A DNA stretch of 62,596 nucleotides from a virus. The stretch covers positions 1-62,596 of IMG/VR virus record IMGVR_UViG_3300014501_000018, one strand, 5' to 3'. How positions within the stretch are numbered: the stretch's first letter is position 1; each line of letters opens with the position of its first letter. Below, one piece after another: positions 17,346 to 37,973 of this stretch. The notes beneath the pieces were generated by a model. It was not told the DNA's origin and ran no database searches. It worked only from the letters and a program-made list of their open reading frames with translations. Both the position numbers and the translations under genes were made by a program.

Positions 17346-18008
17346 CTAACTCGTCAAATCCAACTCCGGCTGCTCGAACGGCAGGAAGTCTCCGAAGTCG
17401 CCGAACGCCGTATCGGTGTCGCAGTCGAGATTGGCGAGCCGGGTCACGGCGCCCTGCAGCAGCACTAATTCCGGCGGCTTGAGCGCCAGATAAGCTCTTG
17501 ATCCCGTCCAGCCCATTGACTGCGAGAGCCACGCCAACTGTGCCGATTTTGCGCCGATGACCGCTTTGCACACAGCTCCCGAGCCATAGACCCCGATCTG
17601 ATAACCCGAGTTCATCAGGACAGCCTCGATCGCGGCGAAGTAGGGAAGCACGTATTGGCTGATCTGGCTGGGACTGGCATCGGTGTCGACTGCGAAATAG
17701 ATGCAGGCTCCTTTGGGAGCCCCAACCGTGGGCGCATAATTCAGACAGAACGTAGCATCACGCTTGCCAGCTTGGGCGCTGATAGCCGGAAACGCACCGT
17801 CGTGGGTGAGGAAATCGCCATACCCTTCATGAACCAAGGCGAGCCGGATACCAGCGTCTGATAGCGCCTGGGCCTCGGCCGGCTTAATGCACTTGTCGCC
17901 GGTCGGGTTGATTGCCGATAAATACCGGATGACGGTCTCGATATTATCCGCTTGCAGATGCTCGATCTGCGGCGTGGTTACTTGGTTGGTGTCTATGATG
18001 CTGGTCAT
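17346..18008 (-). CDS. Endolysin, DUF1906/GH25-like glycoside hydrolase
   Basis: 220 residues. VIRYLSAINPTGDKCIKPAE, RLALVHEGYG, IYFAVDTDAS and IGVYGSGAV are the strands of the DUF1906 (Rv2525c-like) TIM barrel related to GH25 muramidases, with Asp in the strand ends. It probably cleaves the peptidoglycan sugar backbone. No signal peptide, so release would need the holin. The C-terminus has a Cys-Asp pair (NLDCDTDTAFGD). Confidence 0.8.
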   Translation of the reverse strand: MTSIIDTNQVTTPQIEHLQADNIETVIRYLSAINPTGDKCIKPAEAQALSDAGIRLALVHEGYGDFLTHDGAFPAISAQAGKRDATFCLNYAPTVGAPKGACIYFAVDTDASPSQISQYVLPYFAAIEAVLMNSGYQIGVYGSGAVCKAVIGAKSAQLAWLSQSMGWTGSRAYLALKPPELVLLQGAVTRLANLDCDTDTAFGDFGDFLPFEQPELDLTS

Positions 18009-18016
18009 TGTACATC

Positions 18017-19267
18017 CTATCGATGAATCTGTGCTAGATTTATAATTCCGCTTGTTACAATAACCCCATCAGCGCATGTGTAAGGATGAATGCCGTCAGA
18101 AGTCCATGGCGAGCACGCCGGGTAGCCGACACCTGCGTTCCATATTGAATTGTTTGTTCCATTTCCTACAACCGAAGCATCGTCAAAATAGTTTACCGCC
18201 CCGAGAGCCATGGTGAGGATAGCAGTATTAAACGCAGCTAACTGACTTTGAAAAGCCGTTACCGTCTGATTTGACGTTGTCGCCCAACCATCTGTTGAAG
18301 TTGTAAAAGGCGTAAGTGTCTCTTGAATGTTTACACCACCGCCAAGTGAATTAGCGGTAAATTCAGCCCAAATGGTTTCCGTATTAGTTTCAAGCTGAGC
18401 CGCTGTTTGGCTGCCGGCAATATCATTGTGCCCGTAATTATTAATGTCGTGCGAGCAGTATTGGTAGAGCATCTGTCGCACAGTGTTGTTGTTAACAAAA
18501 CTAACTGCACTATCGCCAGCTTTCCCCATGTTTATATAACCAAAATATGGTCCAGCGCTCGGGGCCGTAATTCCTTGATCGCCAAGGGCGGTTACACCCC
18601 CGTTAGAACCGTACTGAATGCTATCACCAAGAAGGCAAAGCGCCGGCAATGTAATGTTCGATACGATTGCTGCTGGGGTCATATACCCTAGCCCACTATT
18701 AGTTACCGAATCGCATGAGGCTGTTTGATCGCTGATACCCGATGCCCCGATGTGCATTGCGTCGCCGAGCGACAAATCAACTTGCCCGTTGTTGGCATAA
18801 ACCGCGCCGGCAGAACCGACCCAATACTGTCTGATCCAGAATTCCGCGCCATTTGGGATTCCAATATTCAGGCTGTCCGACAAGAGTAGCGGGTTTCCCG
18901 TCGTTATGTTTCCGGTGGCGGAACCGCTGAACTTTATCTGGGTGCAGGTGCCAGCGGGCCACTCTACCGAAGCTTTTATGGTGGCAGATGGAAAGGTAGC
19001 AAGAAGATCGCTTTGACCAACTTCATTCCCATCTGGCGTGGTGCCAAAATTCGGGACAACTATTTGAAGTGAGGATACTGCATTTCTGGCAAAATGCGTC
19101 GAACGTGACATTATTTGTCGGTTGGTTTGATCATTTGAGTCGTTGATGTATGATCGAGTTGCAAATTGGCCGGTGTAGCTGGATGGGCTTGCAGCGCAAC
19201 AATAATTTTGAGCTGATGCGTGACCTACTAAAAACGCGCTCAATATGATGGAGATTATGTATTTCAT
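18017..19267 (-). CDS. Exported SGNH-type hydrolase/esterase, possible tail-associated deacetylase
   Basis: 416 residues from ATG 19267; this Met begins a Sec signal (MKYIISIILSAFLVGHASAQ). A Met 8 codons upstream also exists. Block I CLLGDSIQYG has the Ser near residue 213, the N block is NNYGHNDIAG near 280 and the last block SDGIHPY near 390 gives Asp and His. This is the SGNH/GDSL esterase pattern; relatives de-acetylate sugars. The N-terminal 200 residues are beta-rich. It sits next to receptor-binding proteins, so action on host surface sugar is likely. A signal peptide is unusual for a virion part. Confidence 0.75.
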   Translation of the reverse strand: MKYIISIILSAFLVGHASAQNYCCAASPSSYTGQFATRSYINDSNDQTNRQIMSRSTHFARNAVSSLQIVVPNFGTTPDGNEVGQSDLLATFPSATIKASVEWPAGTCTQIKFSGSATGNITTGNPLLLSDSLNIGIPNGAEFWIRQYWVGSAGAVYANNGQVDLSLGDAMHIGASGISDQTASCDSVTNSGLGYMTPAAIVSNITLPALCLLGDSIQYGSNGGVTALGDQGITAPSAGPYFGYINMGKAGDSAVSFVNNNTVRQMLYQYCSHDINNYGHNDIAGSQTAAQLETNTETIWAEFTANSLGGGVNIQETLTPFTTSTDGWATTSNQTVTAFQSQLAAFNTAILTMALGAVNYFDDASVVGNGTNNSIWNAGVGYPACSPWTSDGIHPYTCADGVIVTSGIINLAQIHR

Positions 19268-19269
19268 GA

Positions 19270-20817
19270 CTAGTACGAAAATGCGTCGCACGCGCTGTTA
19301 GCAACGCTGGTTGTTCCGGATACCCCGCCGTTTCCAAGCGCGATATCAATCCATATTGGAGTTCCTGGGGTTAGGCCGATTACGTTTCCAGTTACGGTGA
19401 CGGCGCCAAACCCTCCGGAAATTGCTATATCTGTACTTTGATTCGTGCCTATGAGCGTTCCTGTAGTAGCGGCTCCATTGCTTGGCGCCGTCCCTGTTCC
19501 ATAATGTATACCGTATTGGGCACGTCCTACAGTTCCAGAAATTTGCAGAGTTAAATTGAACCCAATATGAACTCTCGCTGTGTTTGGTGTTATTGCGCAA
19601 ACGGCACCAAGCCCCATCATTAAAGCGGTAGATGATGACACGCCGCCGCTACCGGCACCTGGTGTAACTTGAATAGTTGATCCTGCAACACCACACCCCG
19701 CGCCGGCATCGACCGTGTTTCCAGTGCTGTCGAACTTCGTGCAGTCGCCAGAAACTGGCGAACCTGTCGATAATTGCAGTTTGGTTCCAGTTCCTTGCGC
19801 GCTGGCGGCCCCTCCGACAATAGAAACAGTTGCCGGAAACTGATAGATGCTCGCAAACGGCACGCCGGAATCTACAACCTTGTTGGATGTCACGCCAATT
19901 AAGTTGCCGGAAGTAATGCCACTTGTCGGCGTCGTTCCTGCGGTCAAGGTCGTGACCCCGCAGGCCATCCACGATGGCACCCCAGTTCCATTGGTTTCAA
20001 GACAACTATTGATTACCGAGGATAATCCAACAACGGTTGCCCCGGTCGATGAGTAGTAAGCAAGTTGGTTTGCGGTCCCACTCGTAACTGTGCCGCCCCC
20101 GCCGCTTGTCGTGCAGGGGCCGCCAGCGTCGACATGATTGCCAGCCGAGTCGACGCTAATGCAATGGCCGTTGGTGTAAGAGCCGTTGCCGGTTACAAAA
20201 TCGGTTGTGTTACCCGATCGGGTTCCCTGCCCGATAAGGCTTGTGCCATTGCCGACGAGAGGCAAATTAGCTGTGTAGCTGGATGGGAACGGAACGCCGT
20301 TGACCTTGCCGACAGTGGTAACGCCACCGTTCGTGATCGTCATGTCGCCAGTGATAGTCTCGGCACTCGGCCCAGCGGATGTTTGGCCTATAAGAATTTG
20401 ACCGTTGCCCAGCAGGACGCCAGCTAAGCTACCGGCTAAATTATACTGGACAGAATAAAGTGGTGCAGAAACGACAGCAATGCTTTGCGGCGAGCCGTTG
20501 ACGGCAAAATTTAACCCGCCAGTTGCACCGCCGTAATTGAACATCGAAAGAGTACCGCCTCCGGTTTGTGTTGCTCCAATACATATTTCGTTATAGGGGC
20601 CGGTGACTGGACCGCTATTCGCGCAGATGCTTGGGCCGGAAGCCGTTACGCCAATGCTGGTGAGAAAACCTTGAAACGCTGTACCACCGTCTTGAATAAC
20701 ACCGTTGGTCGTCCACATTGGGACGTGGCCGGGCGTTACGTGACCTGTTTGCTGGACCGGCTGAGCAAATATGTTTTGCGTCGTTAAAATTAAAAAAAGT
20801 GCGATCCATCTGATCAT
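19270..20817 (-). CDS. Tail fibre/receptor-binding-like protein with signal peptide
   Basis: 515 residues. Opens with a Sec-like signal (MIRWIALFLILTTQNIFAQ), then GHVTPGHVPMWTTNGVIQDGG, a motif found at the start of phage fibre proteins, also shared with the gene downstream. Gly/Thr/Ser-rich beta repeats fill residues 60-390. The C-terminal 125 residues (YGTGTAPSNGA onward) are paralogous to the C-terminus of the protein at 21323. I infer receptor binding; the export signal is puzzling for an assembled fibre. Confidence 0.7.
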   Translation of the reverse strand: MIRWIALFLILTTQNIFAQPVQQTGHVTPGHVPMWTTNGVIQDGGTAFQGFLTSIGVTASGPSICANSGPVTGPYNEICIGATQTGGGTLSMFNYGGATGGLNFAVNGSPQSIAVVSAPLYSVQYNLAGSLAGVLLGNGQILIGQTSAGPSAETITGDMTITNGGVTTVGKVNGVPFPSSYTANLPLVGNGTSLIGQGTRSGNTTDFVTGNGSYTNGHCISVDSAGNHVDAGGPCTTSGGGGTVTSGTANQLAYYSSTGATVVGLSSVINSCLETNGTGVPSWMACGVTTLTAGTTPTSGITSGNLIGVTSNKVVDSGVPFASIYQFPATVSIVGGAASAQGTGTKLQLSTGSPVSGDCTKFDSTGNTVDAGAGCGVAGSTIQVTPGAGSGGVSSSTALMMGLGAVCAITPNTARVHIGFNLTLQISGTVGRAQYGIHYGTGTAPSNGAATTGTLIGTNQSTDIAISGGFGAVTVTGNVIGLTPGTPIWIDIALGNGGVSGTTSVANSACDAFSY

Positions 20818-29401: not shown

Positions 29402-31696
29402 TCATCCTCGGTACGAAACGCGCGGGTCGTTCTGGATCATGGCGCTCACCAACGACACATCGGCCTCGTTGGTCTTTATCGTCATCCCGGTGAGCACGCC
29501 TTGCTGCCCCACGGCTTGTGGCGGCGTTACGAAATAGCCGGTACCTGACGGGCTCGGGATCGTGTAAGGCTTTGCATTGTAGAACGTCACTCCGGTCGAG
29601 CCGTTGATGCCGACCGAATCGATGTTTGCAATAATGTTAAGACTGCCGGCGACATTGTAGTTCCACACCGACCAGAAGCGGCCCGTCGCCTTGCTGAATT
29701 GATAACCGCCAGGCTCGTCCCATAGCCGGGATTGCACGAGTTTCTGGAAGCCGGTCGACGGCGTGCTGAACATCGGCTTGATCACCAGTCCATCGGTGCC
29801 CCACGCCGTCAAGACCGAGTTGATCTCTTGTGTTGCGATAAAGGTCAGCGGGCCAAAATCCTGAACCGATGCGTACCACTCCTTGCCGTTCCAGATCAGA
29901 AGTTTGTTGACCGTGGTGTTACTCACCGGATCGATGATTTGCGCCAGCACCATCCAGATGCGCTTGGAGAACACCGTCGCCTTAGCCGCTGAGAGCTGCG
30001 TAAGACTGCCAAAATTGGCGACGCTGCCCCATACGCCGTCCAAAGCTTCGCTGACTTTCTGCAAGGCCGAGCCGCGGCTGACATGCACGCCGATGGAGTT
30101 GGCGAGAACCAAGTCCTGCCCGCGCGTCAGGACCGAGTAGGGATAGGGCGAGCCGATCTCGGGGTCGGCGTTCTGGTTGGTGAATGTCGTCGTGGGCGGG
30201 CTGCCCGAAGTCGTAACACCCGAGATGTAATTCATCGACGAGTCGGCGACCAGATAAAGGAAGCCATTGGTGTTGACGAGGCGGATGTAGCTGACACGCA
30301 GGAAACTATCGCCCGAAGTAAAATTGCCGCCACCGTCCGACGTTGCAAAATTGGTGAACGATCCTGGCGCTCCAAAATAGACCGTAGGACCGTTGGCGAT
30401 CCAGGCGCGGCCTTGATAGGTCTCGACCGTTGTGCCACTGACGCCGAAAGGCGCCAAAGTAACTGTGCCCGCGGCGGTCTCGGCCACGTCGGCGATGCTT
30501 AATGTCGGCGCAACATTGCTGCCATATTGGCCGCCATTCGTTATAAGTACGGACGAAATGGAGCCGTTGGTTATAATCGGAGAAAAAGCCGCTTGCGTGA
30601 TGATGCTGGCACCGCCGCCCGATGACACGATGGAAGCCGTATCGCTATAGCCAGAACCGTGAGCAACAATGGACACACTCGATACGTAGTAGTCCCCGAT
30701 GTCGGTAATTGTTGCGACAGGGCTGGGTGAGGCGCCGCGATAAAAACCAGAAAAGGTTATGCTTACGGATGTCAATGAACCGTTGGTGATAAACGCCGTG
30801 ACATTCGCTTGGTTTTGCGGCGTGTTGCCGCCCGAAACCGTTATTACCGCATAAGGTGAATATCCACTGCCCGCCGCGATAATACTAGCGCTGGTAACTT
30901 CGTACTGACTGCCGACAAGAGTGGCGAGCAAATTGACCGATGCGCCCGACCCAACTGCATGAGACATTATTGCTGTGAGAGAAGCGCCCGAACCCGCAGC
31001 CGTTCCGCCTGAAAATATGAGGCTTACATTCTGGCCGGCGAGATAACCCGAGCCGGGATTTATAATCGAAACGCCTGTGACAACGCCATTAGCGATAGAA
31101 GCAGCAAACATGGCACCCGTACCAGATCCACCCGATGCGTTAACAGATGGGACTGTCTGATACCCCGAACCGGGATTCGTCAGTGTGACAATTGGCGAAA
31201 GTGATCCTGCTTCGTAAACAAGTGCCCCATCCCAAATCCAATAACCGTTGGTTTGGTTGGCGACGATGAGCAGATAAGTTTGCCCCCATTGGGAAAAACC
31301 GATATTGGTTATTGCGGGGGTCGTAATTGTGCCCGGCCCAAGAATTTGAGTCGTGATTGCCGTACCAACTGTATTGACGGTTTGCACCGAGCCGTCAGAG
31401 AGGAAATAAACGGCGTATTCGGTTGCACCAATATTATAGAAGCCGAACAGAACGATCGTTCGGCCACCACTGAATGCAGCGCGTAACTGCGTTCCGCCGC
31501 CGGGGAGCGTCCGCAGATTGCGTGGTGCGACAGGCATGAAGCCGTCGATCCAGTAACACATCTCGTCGGGTACACCGGCTCGCGTTGTCGACGTGTTGAT
31601 GCCGCTGAATTTCTCCATGATCTGCGGCGCCGGGAGAGGCGGCGTAAAGGGATTGCCTTGAGGTTCTTCGGCTTTGGGGGGGTTGGCTAGGGTCAT
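29402..31696 (-). CDS. Tail hub/DNA-stabilisation-like protein with inserted GSGY repeats
   Basis: 764 residues. N-terminus (about 1-170) and C-terminus (about 430-764) read as one beta-propeller-like protein (YWIDGFMPVAPRNLRTLPGG, YQGRAWIANGPTVYFGAPG, WNGKEWYASVQDFG), the style of P22 gp10-like tail-hub proteins. Between them, residues about 175-430 hold five or six beta repeats with Gly-Ser-Gly-Tyr (NPGSGYQTVPSV, NPGSGYLAGQNV, AAGSGYSPYAVI, AHGSGYSDTASI). The same repeat occurs in the adaptor at 32488 and the protein at 34515. Its ribosome site lies in the palindrome at 31705-31729. Confidence 0.75.
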   Translation of the reverse strand: MTLANPPKAEEPQGNPFTPPLPAPQIMEKFSGINTSTTRAGVPDEMCYWIDGFMPVAPRNLRTLPGGGTQLRAAFSGGRTIVLFGFYNIGATEYAVYFLSDGSVQTVNTVGTAITTQILGPGTITTPAITNIGFSQWGQTYLLIVANQTNGYWIWDGALVYEAGSLSPIVTLTNPGSGYQTVPSVNASGGSGTGAMFAASIANGVVTGVSIINPGSGYLAGQNVSLIFSGGTAAGSGASLTAIMSHAVGSGASVNLLATLVGSQYEVTSASIIAAGSGYSPYAVITVSGGNTPQNQANVTAFITNGSLTSVSITFSGFYRGASPSPVATITDIGDYYVSSVSIVAHGSGYSDTASIVSSGGGASIITQAAFSPIITNGSISSVLITNGGQYGSNVAPTLSIADVAETAAGTVTLAPFGVSGTTVETYQGRAWIANGPTVYFGAPGSFTNFATSDGGGNFTSGDSFLRVSYIRLVNTNGFLYLVADSSMNYISGVTTSGSPPTTTFTNQNADPEIGSPYPYSVLTRGQDLVLANSIGVHVSRGSALQKVSEALDGVWGSVANFGSLTQLSAAKATVFSKRIWMVLAQIIDPVSNTTVNKLLIWNGKEWYASVQDFGPLTFIATQEINSVLTAWGTDGLVIKPMFSTPSTGFQKLVQSRLWDEPGGYQFSKATGRFWSVWNYNVAGSLNIIANIDSVGINGSTGVTFYNAKPYTIPSPSGTGYFVTPPQAVGQQGVLTGMTIKTNEADVSLVSAMIQNDPRVSYRG

Positions 31697-31704
31697 TTGA
31701 CAAG

Positions 31705-31729
31705 GTTCTCCATAGGTGCTATGGAGAAC
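31705..31729. promoter_or_regulatory. 11-bp palindrome supplying ribosome sites to two divergent genes
   Basis: GTTCTCCATAG-GTG-CTATGGAGAAC is a perfect 11-bp inverted repeat with a 3-base spacer. On the plus strand its right arm gives GGAG six bases before the RHH start at 31733. On the minus strand its left arm gives GGAG eleven bases before the hub start at 31696. It could be the RHH operator, an RNA hairpin hiding both ribosome sites, or both. Confidence 0.75.
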
Positions 31730-31732
31730 GTC

Positions 31733-31861
31733 ATGAAACGCTCAATCGACTTCACCGATCCGCAGATGAAATGGCTCGAACGCCGTTCCAAAGAACTTGG
31801 CATTACCATCGCCGAATTGGTGCGGAGAATTATTGATGAAAAACGAGAAACAAATAAATAA
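31733..31861 (+). CDS. Ribbon-helix-helix repressor, 42 residues
   Basis: MKRSIDFTDPQMKWLERRSK then ELGITIAELVRRIIDEK. One strand (RSIDFT), helix A, the Gly-Ile-Thr turn and helix B are the full Arc/CopG ribbon-helix-helix. GGAG at 31723-31726 favours this ATG over the one at 31721. It overlaps the endonuclease start at 31836 by 26 bases, so the two are one operon. Likely represses itself and its endonuclease through the palindrome just upstream. Confidence 0.75.
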   Translation: MKRSIDFTDPQMKWLERRSKELGITIAELVRRIIDEKRETNK

Positions 31862-32552
31862 AAAATGCGAAGAGTGCCAGCAAGCATTCGTCGCGCATCG
31901 CCCCGATAAACGTTTTTGCTCACGAAAGTGCTACCGCAGGCAGTACGATCGGCATCCCGCCGACACTCGAAACTCGCCGCGTGATGCCGTTTGTGAAGTG
32001 TGCCAAACTCCATTCGTAAAAAACAAACGGCACCAAGTTTATTGCTCAAGCGAGTGTTACAAAAAAGCTTGGCCCGTACTAAACCGAGAAGCGCATAACG
32101 TCGCTCAACGACGCAAGCGTTTAAAACAGCCCGAGTTATTCCGCCAGCGCGACACTGTTTATCATAGGAAACATCGCTCCAAGTTAACCACGGCCTATCC
32201 ATGGGCGTATCTCTTCAAATCCCGAAAAGCGGAAGCTAAGCAAAAAGGAATACCCTTCGCACTCGATAATGAATGGGCGGCGCCCCTATGGGCGCGCGGT
32301 TGCTCCATTACCGGGCTGCCTTTCCAGCCGAACGCTGCGCAAGGCCCATGGCCTTTTTCGCCGAGCATCGACCAAATTAAACCGGGGCTTGGATATACAA
32401 AAGAAAACGCTCGTTTCATGCTTTGGGGTGCCAACGCGCTAAAAGGGGCAGGCAGCGATGCTGATATGTATGCCATCGCAGAAGCCATCACGAAAGTACG
32501 CTACCGATGTGCTGAAAAATTTGTTGAATCGCTCCTAGCCCTCCCAGCATGA
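31836..32552 (+). CDS. Zinc-ribbon homing endonuclease, inverted island
   Basis: 238 residues from ATG 31836. Two N-terminal zinc ribbons (KKCEECQQAF...FCSRKCYRR and AVCEVCQTPF...YCSSECYKK). The C-terminal domain has CSITGLPFQ, then SPSIDQIKPGLGYTKENARF and MLWGANALKG, the Ser-x-Asp-x-Ile...Gly-Tyr...Asn pattern of an HNH-like endonuclease family. It lies opposite to the virion genes; its last 65 bases are antisense to the end of the adaptor gene. It is related to the protein at 35740. Presumed selfish DNA cutting at a rival locus. Confidence 0.8.
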   Translation: MKNEKQINKKCEECQQAFVAHRPDKRFCSRKCYRRQYDRHPADTRNSPRDAVCEVCQTPFVKNKRHQVYCSSECYKKAWPVLNREAHNVAQRRKRLKQPELFRQRDTVYHRKHRSKLTTAYPWAYLFKSRKAEAKQKGIPFALDNEWAAPLWARGCSITGLPFQPNAAQGPWPFSPSIDQIKPGLGYTKENARFMLWGANALKGAGSDADMYAIAEAITKVRYRCAEKFVESLLALPA

Positions 32553-33489
32553 AGGGCAAAAGGAATCTACCATACGGATTGGTGACTCGCCCGACTCGCG
32601 CCGAGTGAGAATATATACCTAGCTGTTTTTCAAACAAATCCAAATGAAATTTTGCCGCGTTATAGTTGTTTAATTCCAAAAAACCAAGATGAGCAGCAAA
32701 GTAACTAATTGCATCAGTCCACGGATCAGGTATTACCTCATAATCCTGATTAGTTTTTAAGTCTTGCGGGAGACAATAACAGTCTAACTCATACTGATAC
32801 ACTTGCGACGGTAATGGATAACAGTAAAAACTGCCGGACGTGCCTTGACCGTACTGTGAAGCGAAGCTCGGTACATAGGAAAATTGGTACGGATACTGGC
32901 GTATTTGCGCCTGGTAGATAGAAAACGAATAGACGGGCAGTGAATACCTGTAGTTCGCATATATAATTGAGATTCCTTGTACCCCGAATACAGATTTTAC
33001 TCCAGGATTTCCTCCCAAAAACACGCCCGAAAACGGATATACTTCTTGCCCGGCGTTCAATTGATTGATCGGCCCAGTCTGCAACGTCACCGAAGCGCCA
33101 GTGCCAGTCGCATCCGTAATTGTCGCCAGCGGCTGAAAATAACCCGAACCACCATACGTGATATCGACGGCCGCGATCGTCCCGCTCTGCACAATTGCCG
33201 AAGCGGTTGCTTGCGCGCCCAACGGGTTCGCGCCCGTACCACTTGGAAAGTCCGGAGGCGTAATCGTGATCGTCGGCGAATTGCTAAAGCCGGTCCCACC
33301 GGCAATGACGCTCGCGGTCACAATCGGGGCCGACACCTGTGTCAGCACGCGGATGCAATAGGTACGCATCGCCACTTCGCGTCGAGCTCGATTTATGTAA
33401 TTGACTAGGTTCTCCGGATTGATCAAATCCTGTTTGGTCTCACGCAAAAATTTCTGCGTCGTTTTCCAATAATCAAACAGAGTAGCCAT
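32488..33489 (-). CDS. Head-tail adaptor-like protein with inserted GSGY module
   Basis: 333 residues from ATG 33489 (a TTG one codon upstream is in frame). N-terminus ATLFDYWKTTQKFLRETKQD, a C-terminal anchor DPWTDAISYFAAHLGFL. It is a paralogue of the next protein upstream (33489-34256). Residues about 55-140, with GGTGFSNSPTITITPP and YGGSGYFQPLATI, have no match in that paralogue and look like an inserted repeat module. By hand count the C-terminal half is near 40% GC but the insert near 58%. Likely a ring component below the portal. Confidence 0.7.
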   Translation of the reverse strand: MATLFDYWKTTQKFLRETKQDLINPENLVNYINRARREVAMRTYCIRVLTQVSAPIVTASVIAGGTGFSNSPTITITPPDFPSGTGANPLGAQATASAIVQSGTIAAVDITYGGSGYFQPLATITDATGTGASVTLQTGPINQLNAGQEVYPFSGVFLGGNPGVKSVFGVQGISIIYANYRYSLPVYSFSIYQAQIRQYPYQFSYVPSFASQYGQGTSGSFYCYPLPSQVYQYELDCYCLPQDLKTNQDYEVIPDPWTDAISYFAAHLGFLELNNYNAAKFHLDLFEKQLGIYSHSARVGRVTNPYGRFLLPFMLGGLGAIQQIFQHIGSVLS

Positions 33490-34256
33490 CAACCAGCCCC
33501 CTGCCCCGAACGCGGCTGCGAAACTCCAAGCTTGTTGATCGAAGCCGGATCAGCCGACTGCTCATACTGCGTCCGGTTCACTGAAGGATTAGAAGCCTGC
33601 CGAGCCCGGTTTAAAAACTCCTTGTAGTAACCATACATTCGCTCGGCATCGGCCGAACGCGCACCCGTCTGCGACGACAGGAACGCATAATAAGCGGCGA
33701 AAAACGTAATCGCGTCGGTCCACAGATACGGGATTGCCTCAACCGTCGCATCATTCACCAGCGGGATCGGGTAGCACACGCAGTCGCAATTGAGCGTGTA
33801 AACAAGATCAGGCGGCGGGTCGATCCAGAACGAGCCCGAAGCCGCCGAACCAGTCGCCGGTGCCGCGGCGCCTTGCGCATACTGCGACCACACCTCGGGC
33901 GGCCCAGCAACGGGCACCGGATTGTTGACGTGAAAGAGATCGAAATATTCCCAGGCGCGGGGCGGGATCCATTGAGCGCCCGACGCCACGCTATAATTGA
34001 TGCGTCGAACGTGAATCGCACCCTGGATGCCCGTCGTTGCCGACGTTCCAAAGTTCAAACTCGAAAATGGATATTGAACCTGCCCTACAACGGTGGCAAT
34101 CGTGCCAATAGCGCGAATGCACTCGCCCTCGCCGGCCAACTGCCCGCGAGCGATGTTGATCCAATTGTCGAGGGTAGCAGTCGGGTAGAGCGTTGTCGGC
34201 GCTCCAGGCAACTGCAACAGGTTTTGAAGGTTAGTTTCGTAGGCCGTCAGTGCCAT
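33489..34256 (-). CDS. Head-tail adaptor-like protein, short paralogue
   Basis: 255 residues. MALTAYETNLQNLLQLPGAP, TLDNWINIARGQLAGEGECI, VVGQVQYPFSSLNFG and LWTDAITFFAAYYAFLS align with the gene downstream, but the GSGY insertion is absent. The C-terminal 40 residues are polar and probably flexible. The gene is GC-rich, unlike its paralogue. Likely neck ring or gatekeeper; two such genes in tandem suggest a duplicated ring. Confidence 0.7.
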   Translation of the reverse strand: MALTAYETNLQNLLQLPGAPTTLYPTATLDNWINIARGQLAGEGECIRAIGTIATVVGQVQYPFSSLNFGTSATTGIQGAIHVRRINYSVASGAQWIPPRAWEYFDLFHVNNPVPVAGPPEVWSQYAQGAAAPATGSAASGSFWIDPPPDLVYTLNCDCVCYPIPLVNDATVEAIPYLWTDAITFFAAYYAFLSSQTGARSADAERMYGYYKEFLNRARQASNPSVNRTQYEQSADPASINKLGVSQPRSGQGAG

Positions 34257-34277
34257 GGCAGAAAGACCTCTCTGCCA

Positions 34278-34514
34278 TCAGTATAGTCGCTTGAGCACCA
34301 ATGCTCCACCGGGGATCGAGCGCTCGGCATCATAAGTGTGCCACAGTTGCGAACCGTCCGGCATCTTTACCAAGAACGCGGTGCCGAGCCGCATGGTCTG
34401 CTGCTCATCGCCTGGAGTCTGACACGCTGAGTCACCGATGGTGAGCTGCTTAGCAAGTTGGAAGCGGCTATCCGCTTCCACTCCTGTTATGCCGATGCTG
34501 AACGTCTCAGCCAT
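34278..34514 (-). CDS. Hypothetical small neck-region protein
   Basis: 78 residues (MAETFSIGITGVEADSRFQL...). Beta-rich with MRLGTAFLVKMPDGSQLWH and a closing GGALVLKRLY. No hydrophobic helix or known motif. It lies between the decoration-like protein and the adaptors, in the same transcript; possibly a small head-completion part. Confidence 0.55.
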   Translation of the reverse strand: MAETFSIGITGVEADSRFQLAKQLTIGDSACQTPGDEQQTMRLGTAFLVKMPDGSQLWHTYDAERSIPGGALVLKRLY

Positions 34515-35693
34515 TTACGGCGCCGGTTGCATCGTCACAATATCGGCGGCGCTGCCCATGGTCAAAGCAAGACCGAGGATATTCACCGAGCCGGTGCCGG
34601 CCAAGCCAGGCGTGGTTTCCACGACGAAGTTTGGCACCGCGTTGGTGTTAAACAAGCCGCCATCATAGATAGTGCCGACCTGCGGAGCCACTGAACCCGC
34701 ACCGATAACAGTGAGACCGACCTGCGCCGGTCGCGGCAGCCATGCGATGCGATTTTGCTCGGGATTGACGATCGAGCCTTGCGGGGGCACGCCGCCAACC
34801 GTGGTGAGCAGAGCCGACAATGTGCCGTAACCAAGCCCGGCGCCGGTCGTAACTGACGCAGCAGTAACGGTTTGCATGGCAAAGCCGGTCAAGCTCGCGC
34901 CCGTACCCACACCCGCGACCGTCAGCGTGAAGTTGTTCGGGTTCGAGAGCGGCGCGCCGTTGTTCGTACACAAGCACGCCGTCAAGCCGCCGCCGGTCAC
35001 AAGCGAAAATGCCAGCGTACCCGCCGTGATGCCGATGTTGATATTTGGATCGGTCGGGTTTGGCAAAATAACGGGAACGGGCGCCGTAGCATAGCCTGCT
35101 CCGGTATTGGTGAACGTGAAGCCGCTAATCGTGCCGCTGGAGATACCGCAGTATCCCGAAGCCGGGACACCGCCTACGCCATTCGGGTTATTGGCGCTGG
35201 GAGGCGGCGGGGGAATAAGCACGATCGGAGGAACGCCGTAGCCTGCACCCGCGTTTGCCGTCACGACGGATGAGAAGCCAAGTCCGCCGCCAACAATGGG
35301 CTGCCAAGTCGAGCCGCCGCCACCAGTGACTGCCACGGTGGTCGACGCCTGCACGTAATTGGTGCCGAGCGCGAAGATCACCGCACCAGTCGGGCATCCA
35401 GTCAGGTTGGCAACACGGACATTGAAGCCATCGCTTTTGACGTAGATCATCGATCGGCCATACGACGCGGCCGACCCCATCGTCCACACGCCGGTAATCG
35501 GGTCCAGGAACTGCAAGACCAGATAAAAACCAAGATGGATATACCAAGTGCCGGCAGGGACCGGAATCTGGTTGCCAGGCCCAACCGCAAACTTGTTGGT
35601 GCTCGCGTCGTAGGGCGCGTAATTCAGTTCTGTGGGATAAAGATACTGAGGAAGGGGTAGATTGAGCCCCGGCCCGCTTAAGGGAGATGGCAT
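34515..35693 (-). CDS. Beta-rich virion protein with GSGY-type repeats
   Basis: 392 residues; AAGGAG lies seven bases before its ATG. Residues 1-125 are a unique beta domain (GNQIPVPAGTWYIHLGFYLV). Residues about 130-290 contain repeats of the same class as in the tail hub (NAGAGYGVPPIVLIPP, NTGAGYATAPVPVILP, TGAGLGYGTLSALL). Position just after the major capsid protein suggests a decoration or minor capsid protein. Confidence 0.65.
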   Translation of the reverse strand: MPSPLSGPGLNLPLPQYLYPTELNYAPYDASTNKFAVGPGNQIPVPAGTWYIHLGFYLVLQFLDPITGVWTMGSAASYGRSMIYVKSDGFNVRVANLTGCPTGAVIFALGTNYVQASTTVAVTGGGGSTWQPIVGGGLGFSSVVTANAGAGYGVPPIVLIPPPPPSANNPNGVGGVPASGYCGISSGTISGFTFTNTGAGYATAPVPVILPNPTDPNINIGITAGTLAFSLVTGGGLTACLCTNNGAPLSNPNNFTLTVAGVGTGASLTGFAMQTVTAASVTTGAGLGYGTLSALLTTVGGVPPQGSIVNPEQNRIAWLPRPAQVGLTVIGAGSVAPQVGTIYDGGLFNTNAVPNFVVETTPGLAGTGSVNILGLALTMGSAADIVTMQPAP

Positions 35694-35739: not shown

Positions 35740-36354
35740 ATGACCCAAAATTCTAGGAACTGTTTGAGCTGCGGGGCACCACTTCCGGATAACCGGCCGA
35801 AGTTCTGTTCACACAAACACGCGATGGACTGGCACAATTCCCAGCAAGATTGGCGAACGCGAAAAGATCGATTCAGCCGAAACGCTGCAAGGAAACGCGC
35901 ATACGAAGCCGACCCCGAATTTTGGCGTAACAAAACCCGCGCATGGCGCGAGGCCCATCCGGAGCAATCTAAGTTTTTTGCCCAAAAGCAAAAAGAGGGG
36001 TATTGGCGAAAACCGTGGGTAAAAGCCATCATAGCTGCGAAAGGGCGCGCAATAAAACGCAATATCCCGTTCGATTTAACATACGAATGGGGGGAAAAAC
36101 GTTGGACTGGCTTTTGCGAACTCACAGGTATTCCTTTCTCGCCTCGTCGGGGCGCCTCTTCCAGCATCTTCTCACCTAGCCTTGACAAGATCATTCCAGC
36201 CAAGGGGTACGTACAAACCAACTGTCGCTTCATCCTTTTCGGTGTCAACAATCTCAAACACGACGGCACCGACGAAGAAATGTACATGGTCGCTAAGTCG
36301 TTGATTTCACATCTAATATTGGTTCCCGGCGAGGTTATAGCCCCAGAAACCTGA
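35740..36354 (+). CDS. Zinc-ribbon homing endonuclease, second inverted island
   Basis: 204 residues. N-terminal ribbon NCLSCGAPL...KFCSHKHAMDW; C-terminal CELTGIPFS, then SPSLDKIIPAKGYVQTNCRF and LFGVNNLKHDGTDEEMYMVA. It matches the C-terminal half of the protein at 31836 block by block but has one ribbon instead of two. It runs against the capsid operon, with the last 42 bases antisense to the major capsid gene. No RHH gene precedes it. Confidence 0.8.
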   Translation: MTQNSRNCLSCGAPLPDNRPKFCSHKHAMDWHNSQQDWRTRKDRFSRNAARKRAYEADPEFWRNKTRAWREAHPEQSKFFAQKQKEGYWRKPWVKAIIAAKGRAIKRNIPFDLTYEWGEKRWTGFCELTGIPFSPRRGASSSIFSPSLDKIIPAKGYVQTNCRFILFGVNNLKHDGTDEEMYMVAKSLISHLILVPGEVIAPET

Positions 36355-37353
36355 CGACGATTTCGCGGTGATGATGTCGTAGCCGACGACAACCACGCCT
36401 TGCTGCCCGATCTGCCCGAGCGGCACCAGCGAGTAGAAGCCGGAGAAGTCGAATGCCGCGTCCTCGGACAGATACATCGAGGTGTATTTGACGTTGACGC
36501 CAAAGACGTTGCCCTGTGGACAAAAGTGATCGGCGAAGATCGGAACGCCCGAGACAAACAAGTTCGGGAAGCTCGACCGAACCGCGGTGTCCATCGTGAA
36601 CTGCTGCGGCGGAATTTGGTGGATTTGCTCAATCCCGATGAAGTCCAGATTGAGCGTGGCATAGTCGCCGGGATTCATGACCACGAAGGTCGGTGCCTCG
36701 CCGCCCGCCTGGTCAGTGACATACGATAACAGCGTCGCCATCGATTTGCGGGTGAAGCCCACCGTTCCAAGCGAGAACGTGCCCGAGTTTAGATTGATGT
36801 ACTGGCCCTTGAAGGCCGAGTTGCCGGCGTTGTTGCGATTTACGCCGCCGTAGGTCGGAAAGTTCGTGCCGTTGTCGAACGCATCCTGAAAGCTGTTCGG
36901 CAGAAGCGGATTGCCCGAGTTGTTGGTGAACGTCAGGCGAGCCATGTTCTGGCGCGTCACGGCATACACGTCATTCATACGCGCTTTGAGGATCGAGATT
37001 TCGCGATCCGTCGCCTGAATGATCGTTTCGCCGAAGGGTAGCGGGATCGGCACGACCCAATAAGCGAGATTGAATTGCAGGTTCTGAATACCGGGCGTTA
37101 TGACAGGGCTGTTAAAGCCGCCGCCGTAGCCGGTGAACTGGCCCTGCACCATGCTTTGGCCTTGCGCCGGCACCGTGATCTGGTTGAGGCCGCCGGCCGC
37201 GCGCTGTGCGTTGCCGGTCATGTAGAAAAGTGTGGGGCTTCCAAAATAGATTTGTACAAAGAGACGCGGGACGAAAGCGCGCCGTGTGGCACTTGCGAGC
37301 TCATTATAAAGTGAGCCCGCAGCAGGTGCGACGCCAATACCGGGAAGTGGCAA
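36313..37353 (-). CDS. Major capsid protein
   Basis: 346 residues. It directly follows the scaffold gene in the transcription order, the standard place. Contents fit a shell protein: RRAFVPRLFVQIYFGSPTLF near the start, a long middle helix (REISILKARMNDVYAVTRQN), then APTFVVMNPGDYATLNLDF and IPIF-like loops (SGVPIFADHFCPQG), ending in beta (GVVVVGYDIITAKSSS). No cleavable prodomain is obvious. I expect an HK97-type fold but that rests on context. The island endonuclease overlaps its last 14 codons on the other strand. Confidence 0.85.
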   Translation of the reverse strand: MPLPGIGVAPAAGSLYNELASATRRAFVPRLFVQIYFGSPTLFYMTGNAQRAAGGLNQITVPAQGQSMVQGQFTGYGGGFNSPVITPGIQNLQFNLAYWVVPIPLPFGETIIQATDREISILKARMNDVYAVTRQNMARLTFTNNSGNPLLPNSFQDAFDNGTNFPTYGGVNRNNAGNSAFKGQYINLNSGTFSLGTVGFTRKSMATLLSYVTDQAGGEAPTFVVMNPGDYATLNLDFIGIEQIHQIPPQQFTMDTAVRSSFPNLFVSGVPIFADHFCPQGNVFGVNVKYTSMYLSEDAAFDFSGFYSLVPLGQIGQQGVVVVGYDIITAKSSSGFWGYNLAGNQY

Positions 37354-37367
37354 ACTAGCCTCCTAAG

Positions 37368-37973
37368 TTAGCGTCGCGAACTGCCGCGAACTTCGTTGAT
37401 GGTTGCGCCGATACGCTGGGACAAAGCGCCGTCCGAGATGCCGTTCTTGCCAGCCTTCAACAGGCTGTCGACGTACTTATCGTCAGCGTCGTCGGTCGAG
37501 GACGGAAGTTCGGCAAAATTCCAGCCGCCGGTCCCGCTCTGAGACACCGGCATCTGCGGAGGATGATCGCGTTCGAAGATCGCGGCGGCATCCAGCGGAT
37601 CGAGGATGCCCTTTTCCTCCATGATCTTTTCGACGGCCTTGATGCCATCGTCGGTGTAGCGTTGCTCGCGCAGTTTCGCGATGCCGCTATCCTTCATCAA
37701 TTGAAGTTGAGCAATCCGGCCGTCGCGCTCGCGCGCGGCCTTGTCATCCTCGATCTGCTTCTTGAGATCAGCGATTTCCTTGGAAGTCGACGCCTTGATT
37801 TCCTCGATCGGATCCGGCTCGTCCAGCTCGGGAACGTCCGCCTTCGGATCGACGATCTTCTGGGCCTCAAGAACCTTGCGCCGCGCCTTGGGATTCTTCA
37901 ACCACCCCTCGACAGTCTGCCGCAGCTTGGTGTTCTGCTGCAACTGAAGTTCATCAACCTCGACGGTGGGCAT
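37368..37973 (-). CDS. Capsid scaffolding protein
   Basis: 201 residues, highly charged and helical. IEEIKASTSKEIADLKKQIE and DDKAARERDGRIAQLQLMKD form a coiled coil. A Pro/Gly/Ser-rich gap near 140-155 separates a basic C-terminal helix (SQRIGATINEVRGSSRR) which is where scaffolds usually touch the coat protein. It lies 14 bases upstream of the major capsid gene. Confidence 0.8.
   Translation of the reverse strand: MPTVEVDELQLQQNTKLRQTVEGWLKNPKARRKVLEAQKIVDPKADVPELDEPDPIEEIKASTSKEIADLKKQIEDDKAARERDGRIAQLQLMKDSGIAKLREQRYTDDGIKAVEKIMEEKGILDPLDAAAIFERDHPPQMPVSQSGTGGWNFAELPSSTDDADDKYVDSLLKAGKNGISDGALSQRIGATINEVRGSSRR

Follow-up and report, generated by a model that had tools for sequence, protein, structure and literature searches.

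The window analysed here, meaning the whole stretch of DNA, is a virus record of 62.6 kb from IMG/VR (IMGVR_UViG_3300014501_000018; 62,596 nucleotides). Its minus strand carries, in translation order, an upstream gene labelled scaffold (37368-37973; a label only), the major capsid protein (36313-37353; NCBIfam capsid_maj_Podo with 58.4 bits, below its cut-off of 80), an all-beta protein of 392 amino acids (aa) between the capsid and adaptor genes (34515-35693; hereafter the third protein), adaptor 2 (33489-34256), adaptor 1 (334 aa; 32488-33492), the nozzle or tail hub protein (764 aa; 29402-31696), and more genes. A degenerate unit of ~37-40 aa with Gly-Ser-Gly-Tyr (GSGY) turns occurs six times in the hub, twice in adaptor 1, and about four times in the third protein. 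These GSGY repeats are homologous across the three proteins. They come in pairs that are inserted in the hub and adaptor 1, and their number in the hub varies among relatives.

Three proteins with homologous GSGY repeats

The hub was modelled with AlphaFold2 (AF2), with a predicted local distance difference test (pLDDT) score of 87.5 and a predicted template modelling (pTM) score of 0.73. A Foldseek search with this model retrieved the nozzle proteins of cyanophage A4 (E 4e-17), T7 (gp12; 5e-14), SU10 (gp17; 1e-13), and P22 (gp10; 2e-9), while no Pfam family matched. The first-pass annotation had described a tail hub with a propeller-like fold broken into two halves by the repeats, and the Foldseek matches agree with both points. 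The propeller-type core comprises residues ~25-164 and ~417-760, and the GSGY insert between them (residues 165-415; 30452-31204) contains six units, i.e., three pairs. Pair 1 (residues 165-246; 30959-31204) was delimited by alignment with two-unit relatives, pair 2 (residues 264-332; 30701-30907), whose second unit is degenerate, and pair 3 (residues 333-415; 30452-30700) by profile, alignment, and DSSP. According to DSSP, the insert follows two propeller strand groups in the model. It is flanked by the near-invariant residues Y152/W155 on one side and by Y426 and the invariant W432 on the other. Because of this strand order and these flanking residues, our best guess is that the insert leaves the propeller at the slot of the T7 and SU10 nozzle domains.

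Adaptor 1 is encoded near the hub, and this gene order is kept in relatives. Its identity as an adaptor, already proposed, was substantiated by a match of residues 145-299 to Pfam SU10_adaptor (PF24175; 43.1 bits, cut-off 27), the SU10-type head-tail adaptor. One GSGY pair (residues 56-146; 33055-33327) is located after the N-terminal helices and before the region matching SU10_adaptor. The paralogue adaptor 2 gave no repeat match and served as an internal control. The third protein carries four units by strand pattern (residues 101-283; 34845-35393). Its AF2 model reached a pLDDT of 83.8 and a pTM of 0.80, but found no PDB fold match with E <= 0.001, and searches of Pfam, PHROGs, and PDB folds were negative except for the repeat. 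The former description of this protein as decoration-like was based on gene order only and gains no support from the family and fold searches.

The repeats lie where the first-pass annotation had placed them (hub residues ~164-416, adaptor 1 ~49-146, third protein ~95-283). A family of motifs is indeed present, but the pattern originally given, (N/A)-x-GSGY-xxx-P-x-(V/I), occurs in exact form only once in the three proteins, in the hub (TNPGSGYQTVPSV), and most copies deviate from it (e.g., GTGF, GAGY, or GSGYLAGQNV). The repeat was therefore handled as a profile, which was made from the hub repeats and then iterated within the family. For a hub-only test profile, we used the hubs of other phages, with the window and its two nearest relatives excluded. 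Against the whole proteins of the window, this profile matched the hub with E 1.7e-16 and adaptor 1 with E 1.9e-7; the third protein was matched through one unit only (3e-4). Shuffled sequences (500 each) reached best scores of 3-7 bits, compared with real scores of 48.5 and 19.5, which rules out a composition artefact. Profile-profile comparison linked the hub insert to adaptor 1 (P 96%, E 1.6e-9) and to the third protein (P 95%, E 3.2e-8). Moreover, the independently predicted models of the hub and the third protein have in common an A-B-C order of three strands per unit (DSSP). These results support one module in three virion proteins. Among all open reading frames (ORFs) of at least 80 aa in the window, no repeat match was found outside these three.

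The repeat regions are nearly devoid of charge. Charged residues account for 2.8, 3.3, and 0.5% of the repeat regions of the hub, adaptor 1, and the third protein, versus 11.1, 14.0, and 6.7% of the rest of each protein, and G, S, T, and N together make up 44-47% of the repeat regions. Recent copying between the three genes at the DNA level was considered and rejected, as only short DNA matches of 71-74% were seen.

Paired insertion in the hub and adaptor 1

Relatives were gathered via the major capsid protein, the anchor for the comparison (147 relatives in IMG/VR), and via the hub. The length of the hub insert was measured between the invariant residues G164 and P416. In the first 40 hubs, it was 8-12, 78-81, 158-180, or 242-281 aa, and the remainder of the protein comprised 474-510 aa in all but two. 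The 82 distinct hubs fell into five classes with inserts of 9-13 (21 hubs), 79-82 (3), 159-181 (13), 235-282 (43), and 312-317 aa (2), and no insert length lay between these classes. Read together with the alignment, they correspond to 0, 2, 4, 6, and 8 units, without any odd count. The length spread of the 235-282 class is due to loops, and even in its longest members (L061 and L091) the alignment reveals six units. On the core tree, which is unrooted and does not polarise loss versus gain, the unit number must have changed at least 11 times, and presence or absence at least four times. In one hub (L085), the usual slot is empty and four units are found after residue 73 instead. Relatives without the repeat, a check that the first-pass annotation had suggested, therefore do exist, as hubs with an intact core but zero units. 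The module is inserted in the hub and can be present, absent, longer, shorter, or moved while the core remains constant.

Some hub relatives differ in other respects. The six-unit hub at L093:15382-18288 contains a further insert of ~190 aa without GSGY units after window residue ~680, which marks another insertion-tolerant loop. A podophage nozzle (L010:9314-11302; MW202753.1) is named 'baseplate wedge initiator' in GenBank, probably a misnomer caused by the repeat common to it and cyanophage gp7. Directly after the hub, L041 (9443-10240) and homologues have a fibre-like gene with a conserved N-terminal region of ~130 aa. This gene accompanies all 12 hubs without units and 3 of the 16 hubs with six, and was not found in the window. 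We rejected it as a substitute for the nozzle module: the tree holds five changes and two supported independent pairs, too few independent changes to decide on a link with zero-unit hubs.

Adaptor 1 was compared with its paralogue and with more distant adaptors. Adaptor 2 aligns with adaptor 1 over the full length (hhalign; P 100%, E 3e-41) with a single gap of 91 residues, and this gap is the GSGY pair. The adaptor of a distant relative (L009) lacks precisely the same stretch, and the L010 adaptor has an unrelated stretch of ~80 residues at this position, so this site accepts different modules. By these alignments, the pair is cleanly inserted in adaptor 1. In 45 relatives, the segment corresponding to residues 48-152 is nearly constant in length (104-108 aa). 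Judged by its position, the pair may sit where SU10 and T7 carry their outward fibre dock.

Two observations concern the adaptor genes themselves. The number of adaptor paralogues varies, as L006, L037, L076, and L082 have extra copies of adaptor 2, two or three in tandem, between the third protein and adaptor 1. The window also contains two plus-strand genes for HNH/endonuclease VII-like proteins (phrog_3322), of which one (35740-36354) adjoins the capsid and third-protein genes and the other (31797-32552) adjoins adaptor 1 and the hub. The latter overlaps the 3' end of adaptor 1, and the adaptor 1 product has a tail of ~25 aa (residues 310-334) that is missing in close relatives.

The third protein behaves differently. 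No relative found lacks the units (comparison set of 59 sequences), so that an insertion cannot be demonstrated here. The proposal that the module was placed at loops of three virion parts thus holds for the hub and adaptor 1, for which relatives or a paralogue without units exist, but not for the third protein.

Carriers of the module beyond the window

The pair of ~75-80 aa, which DSSP of the hub model resolves into six strands with an internal repeat, had no convincing match in Pfam, NCBIfam, or PDB. When 20 pairs were compared with immunoglobulin (Ig)-like and Big Pfam models, one matched Big_9 at 0.001 and the other 19 none. A lectin or another solved fold was likewise rejected, as none was found for the module by sequence or, for the third protein, by fold. 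A literature text search on the repeat signature found nothing, and for one BFVD match, named E1 FCCH domain, no relevant paper on that link was found. Module sequences used as BLAST queries retrieved no phage or plasmid records, probably because of the low-complexity filter; the whole hub retrieved 135 phage records. The GSGY pair is without a name in the databases checked and is another promiscuous virion domain, with a clean pairing rule.

Searched as a profile against phage proteins, as had been suggested, the repeat recurs in 16-19 PHROG families, nearly all of them labelled head, connector, baseplate, fibre, or structural. The cyanomyovirus S-ShM2 carries it in Hc2 (gp14), in a structural protein of ~6200 aa, and in two baseplate wedge proteins. 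In bacterial genomes, the pair profile gave matches in 12 of 399 genomes of one phylum sample, in 71 of 397 from the order of an Acetobacteraceae metagenome-assembled genome (MAG), and in 63 of 388 from the phylum of a Verrucomicrobia MAG. Prophage-like carriers include DUF3383 and Phage_sheath proteins, cement proteins of the E217 gp24/XM1 gp53 families, and beta-helix tailspike-like proteins. Prophage-like clusters from the order of the Acetobacteraceae MAG (L236-L249; e.g., G1241, G1126, G1013) encode two separate GSGY pairs, the first within a capsid cement protein and the second within a sheath-like DUF3383 protein ~4 kb from the cement gene; as in the window, one module is carried by several virion parts, but in an unrelated phage.

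A module restricted to virions is refuted by bacterial TadG-like and secreted carriers. The TadE/G-like protein at L183:652-2892 has six GSGY units, which in our own reading of its motifs look like an interruption of a von Willebrand A-like region, and Verrucomicrobia carriers have signal-peptide-like starts. The basic function of the module is therefore not specific to nozzles. Pairing extends to these distant arrays: away from locus ends, 59 of 71 arrays, which are not fully independent, had two units, four had four, and three had six, and the five odd automatic counts were re-read by eye as 2, 2, 2, 2, and 8 units. The search profile was a pair, so that single units could escape, while arrays of three or five should not.

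Possible roles and comparison with known systems

We propose that the GSGY repeats make up a mobile beta domain of ~75-80 aa with almost no charge, which is built from two three-strand units, is always paired, and has been placed in virion protein loops of this phage. The three pairs of the hub would occupy the site of the T7-like tip domain and of the four SU10 Ig-like domains, and would most likely stack into the distal arm of a hexameric nozzle. The nozzle tip may thus be a chain of zero to four domains, whose number sets its length and changes by whole pairs. In adaptor 1, the pair would lie between helix 2 and the strand leading into the fibre-dock region of the 12-fold neck ring, a position from which it should point outward. 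Exposed pairs would most likely serve as spacer domains, or as weak contact domains in repeated copies, that face the host envelope. Taken as a whole, we regard this reading, a mobile paired surface domain with a hub stack as nozzle arm, as reasonably probable. The exact slot, surface exposure, and arm geometry are what we infer, and the contact function is our guess. A surface domain had already been suggested. Exposure is likely from the slots used, at the nozzle tip and at the junction of helix bundle and fibre dock, and because cement and sheath proteins, among the prophage carriers, are surface proteins by family.

Several points weigh against this proposal. The units are never missing from the third protein and, as far as is visible there, may be integral to it. 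Pair counts come from profiles and alignment, with degenerate units read by eye, and some of the proteins behind the absence of odd counts are close relatives of each other. The hub slot was assigned from strand order and flanking residues, and bacterial non-virion carriers exist.

The pairs could instead be structural filler that stabilises the neck and tail through contacts among neighbouring subunits or of hub, adaptor, and third protein with one another, without binding the host. We consider this quite possible, if somewhat short of an even chance. Several carriers per phage (three in the window, four in S-ShM2) and two carrier ORFs ~4 kb apart in prophages of about a dozen genomes from the order of the Acetobacteraceae MAG are as expected if modules touch each other. 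The SU10 nozzle domains do touch one another and have a stabilising effect on the tail (PMC9509320), and the pair number of adaptor 1 is fixed. But hub units range from 0 to 8 while adaptor 1 and the third protein stay constant, so that hub units have no fixed partner, and secreted, adhesin-like, and TadG-like bacterial proteins also carry the module. Low-affinity binding of extracellular polysaccharide, envelope glycans, or mucus, with avidity from many copies, is a possibility we hold tentatively. It agrees with the very low charge and high G/S/T/N content, with carriers among cement, sheath, tailspike, and secreted proteins, and with comparable proposals for Ig-like and BACON domains (PMC11476376; PMC6949934), but the module showed no conserved patch of aromatic or acidic residues and no lectin fold matched. 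For the hub, a structural role in nozzle-arm length is at least as likely as adhesion; for exposed modules, a role as spacer or stabiliser has about the same likelihood as weak adhesion. A bolder version, in which a new two-repeat fold serves as mobile surface domain in phages and bacteria and the nozzle pair number is a tail-tip ruler matched to the depth of the host surface layer, seems unlikely. That the repeats belong to the core fold in each family would suit their constancy in the third protein and in the adaptor 1 proteins of near relatives, but is very improbable given repeat-free hubs with intact cores and the repeat-free adaptor 2 and L009 adaptor; of the families concerned, only the third protein has units in all relatives. 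Convergent low-complexity G/S/T-rich sequence, despite the strong composition bias and the weak link of the third protein to the hub-only profile, is hardly credible against the shuffle scores, profile-profile E values of 1e-8 to 1e-9, the fixed strand register, and the pairing rule.

Under our proposal, whole-pair gain or loss would alter tail-tip length, and the podovirus relatives with 0 to 8 units form a natural series for comparing nozzle length with host surface. The pairing rule leads to a sharp structural prediction. As the module is carried in head, neck, sheath, baseplate, and tip proteins of cyanophages, prophages, and uncultured phages, treating the GSGY pair as one domain would correct misannotations such as that of the L010 nozzle. 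Elsewhere in the window, a gene with an Rv2525c-like glycoside hydrolase domain (17346-18008, minus strand) neighbours a lysophospholipase L1-like esterase family member (18017-19291, minus strand; phrog_8480), and both likely have lysis or envelope functions.

Nine PHROGs (460, 701, 19630, 708, 2885, 4406, 438, 5342, and 17885) contain the GSGY repeat, with E down to 7e-20. They comprise head closure, baseplate, fibre, and structural proteins, largely of cyanomyoviruses, but are whole-protein families in which the repeat is neither separated nor named. The closest structural parallels are nozzles. SU10 has four inserted Ig-like domains between blades 2 and 3 of its propeller. During ejection, these domains swing outwards and build a nozzle of 277 A together with the short fibres (PMC9509320). 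The T7 tip domain emerges from a loop in blade 3, where the residues Y146, Y281, and W297 pack it (PMC6702177). SU10 gp17 and T7 gp12 thus resemble our hub in having extra beta domains in a nozzle propeller, apparently at the same slot and in SU10 also several in a row. However, no sequence similarity to the GSGY module was found, and only the latter has an internal two-fold repeat with GSGY turns and no consistent Ig Pfam match. Furthermore, the hub units vary in pairs among close relatives, unlike the SU10 and T7 nozzle domains. Promiscuous Ig-like virion domains (Fraser et al. 2006, as cited in PMC11476376), of which the phi29-like phage Phanie has six (PMC11476376), are likewise spread over unrelated surface proteins, vary in copy number, and have bacterial carriers too, but belong to another sequence family, whereas the GSGY pair has an internal duplication and no Pfam model was found for it. 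The BACON tandem repeats of crAss-like phages (PMC6949934) are also tail-associated, evolve in copy number, and have been proposed to contact the host. Their sequence is unrelated, and in the GSGY module the unit of variation is the pair.

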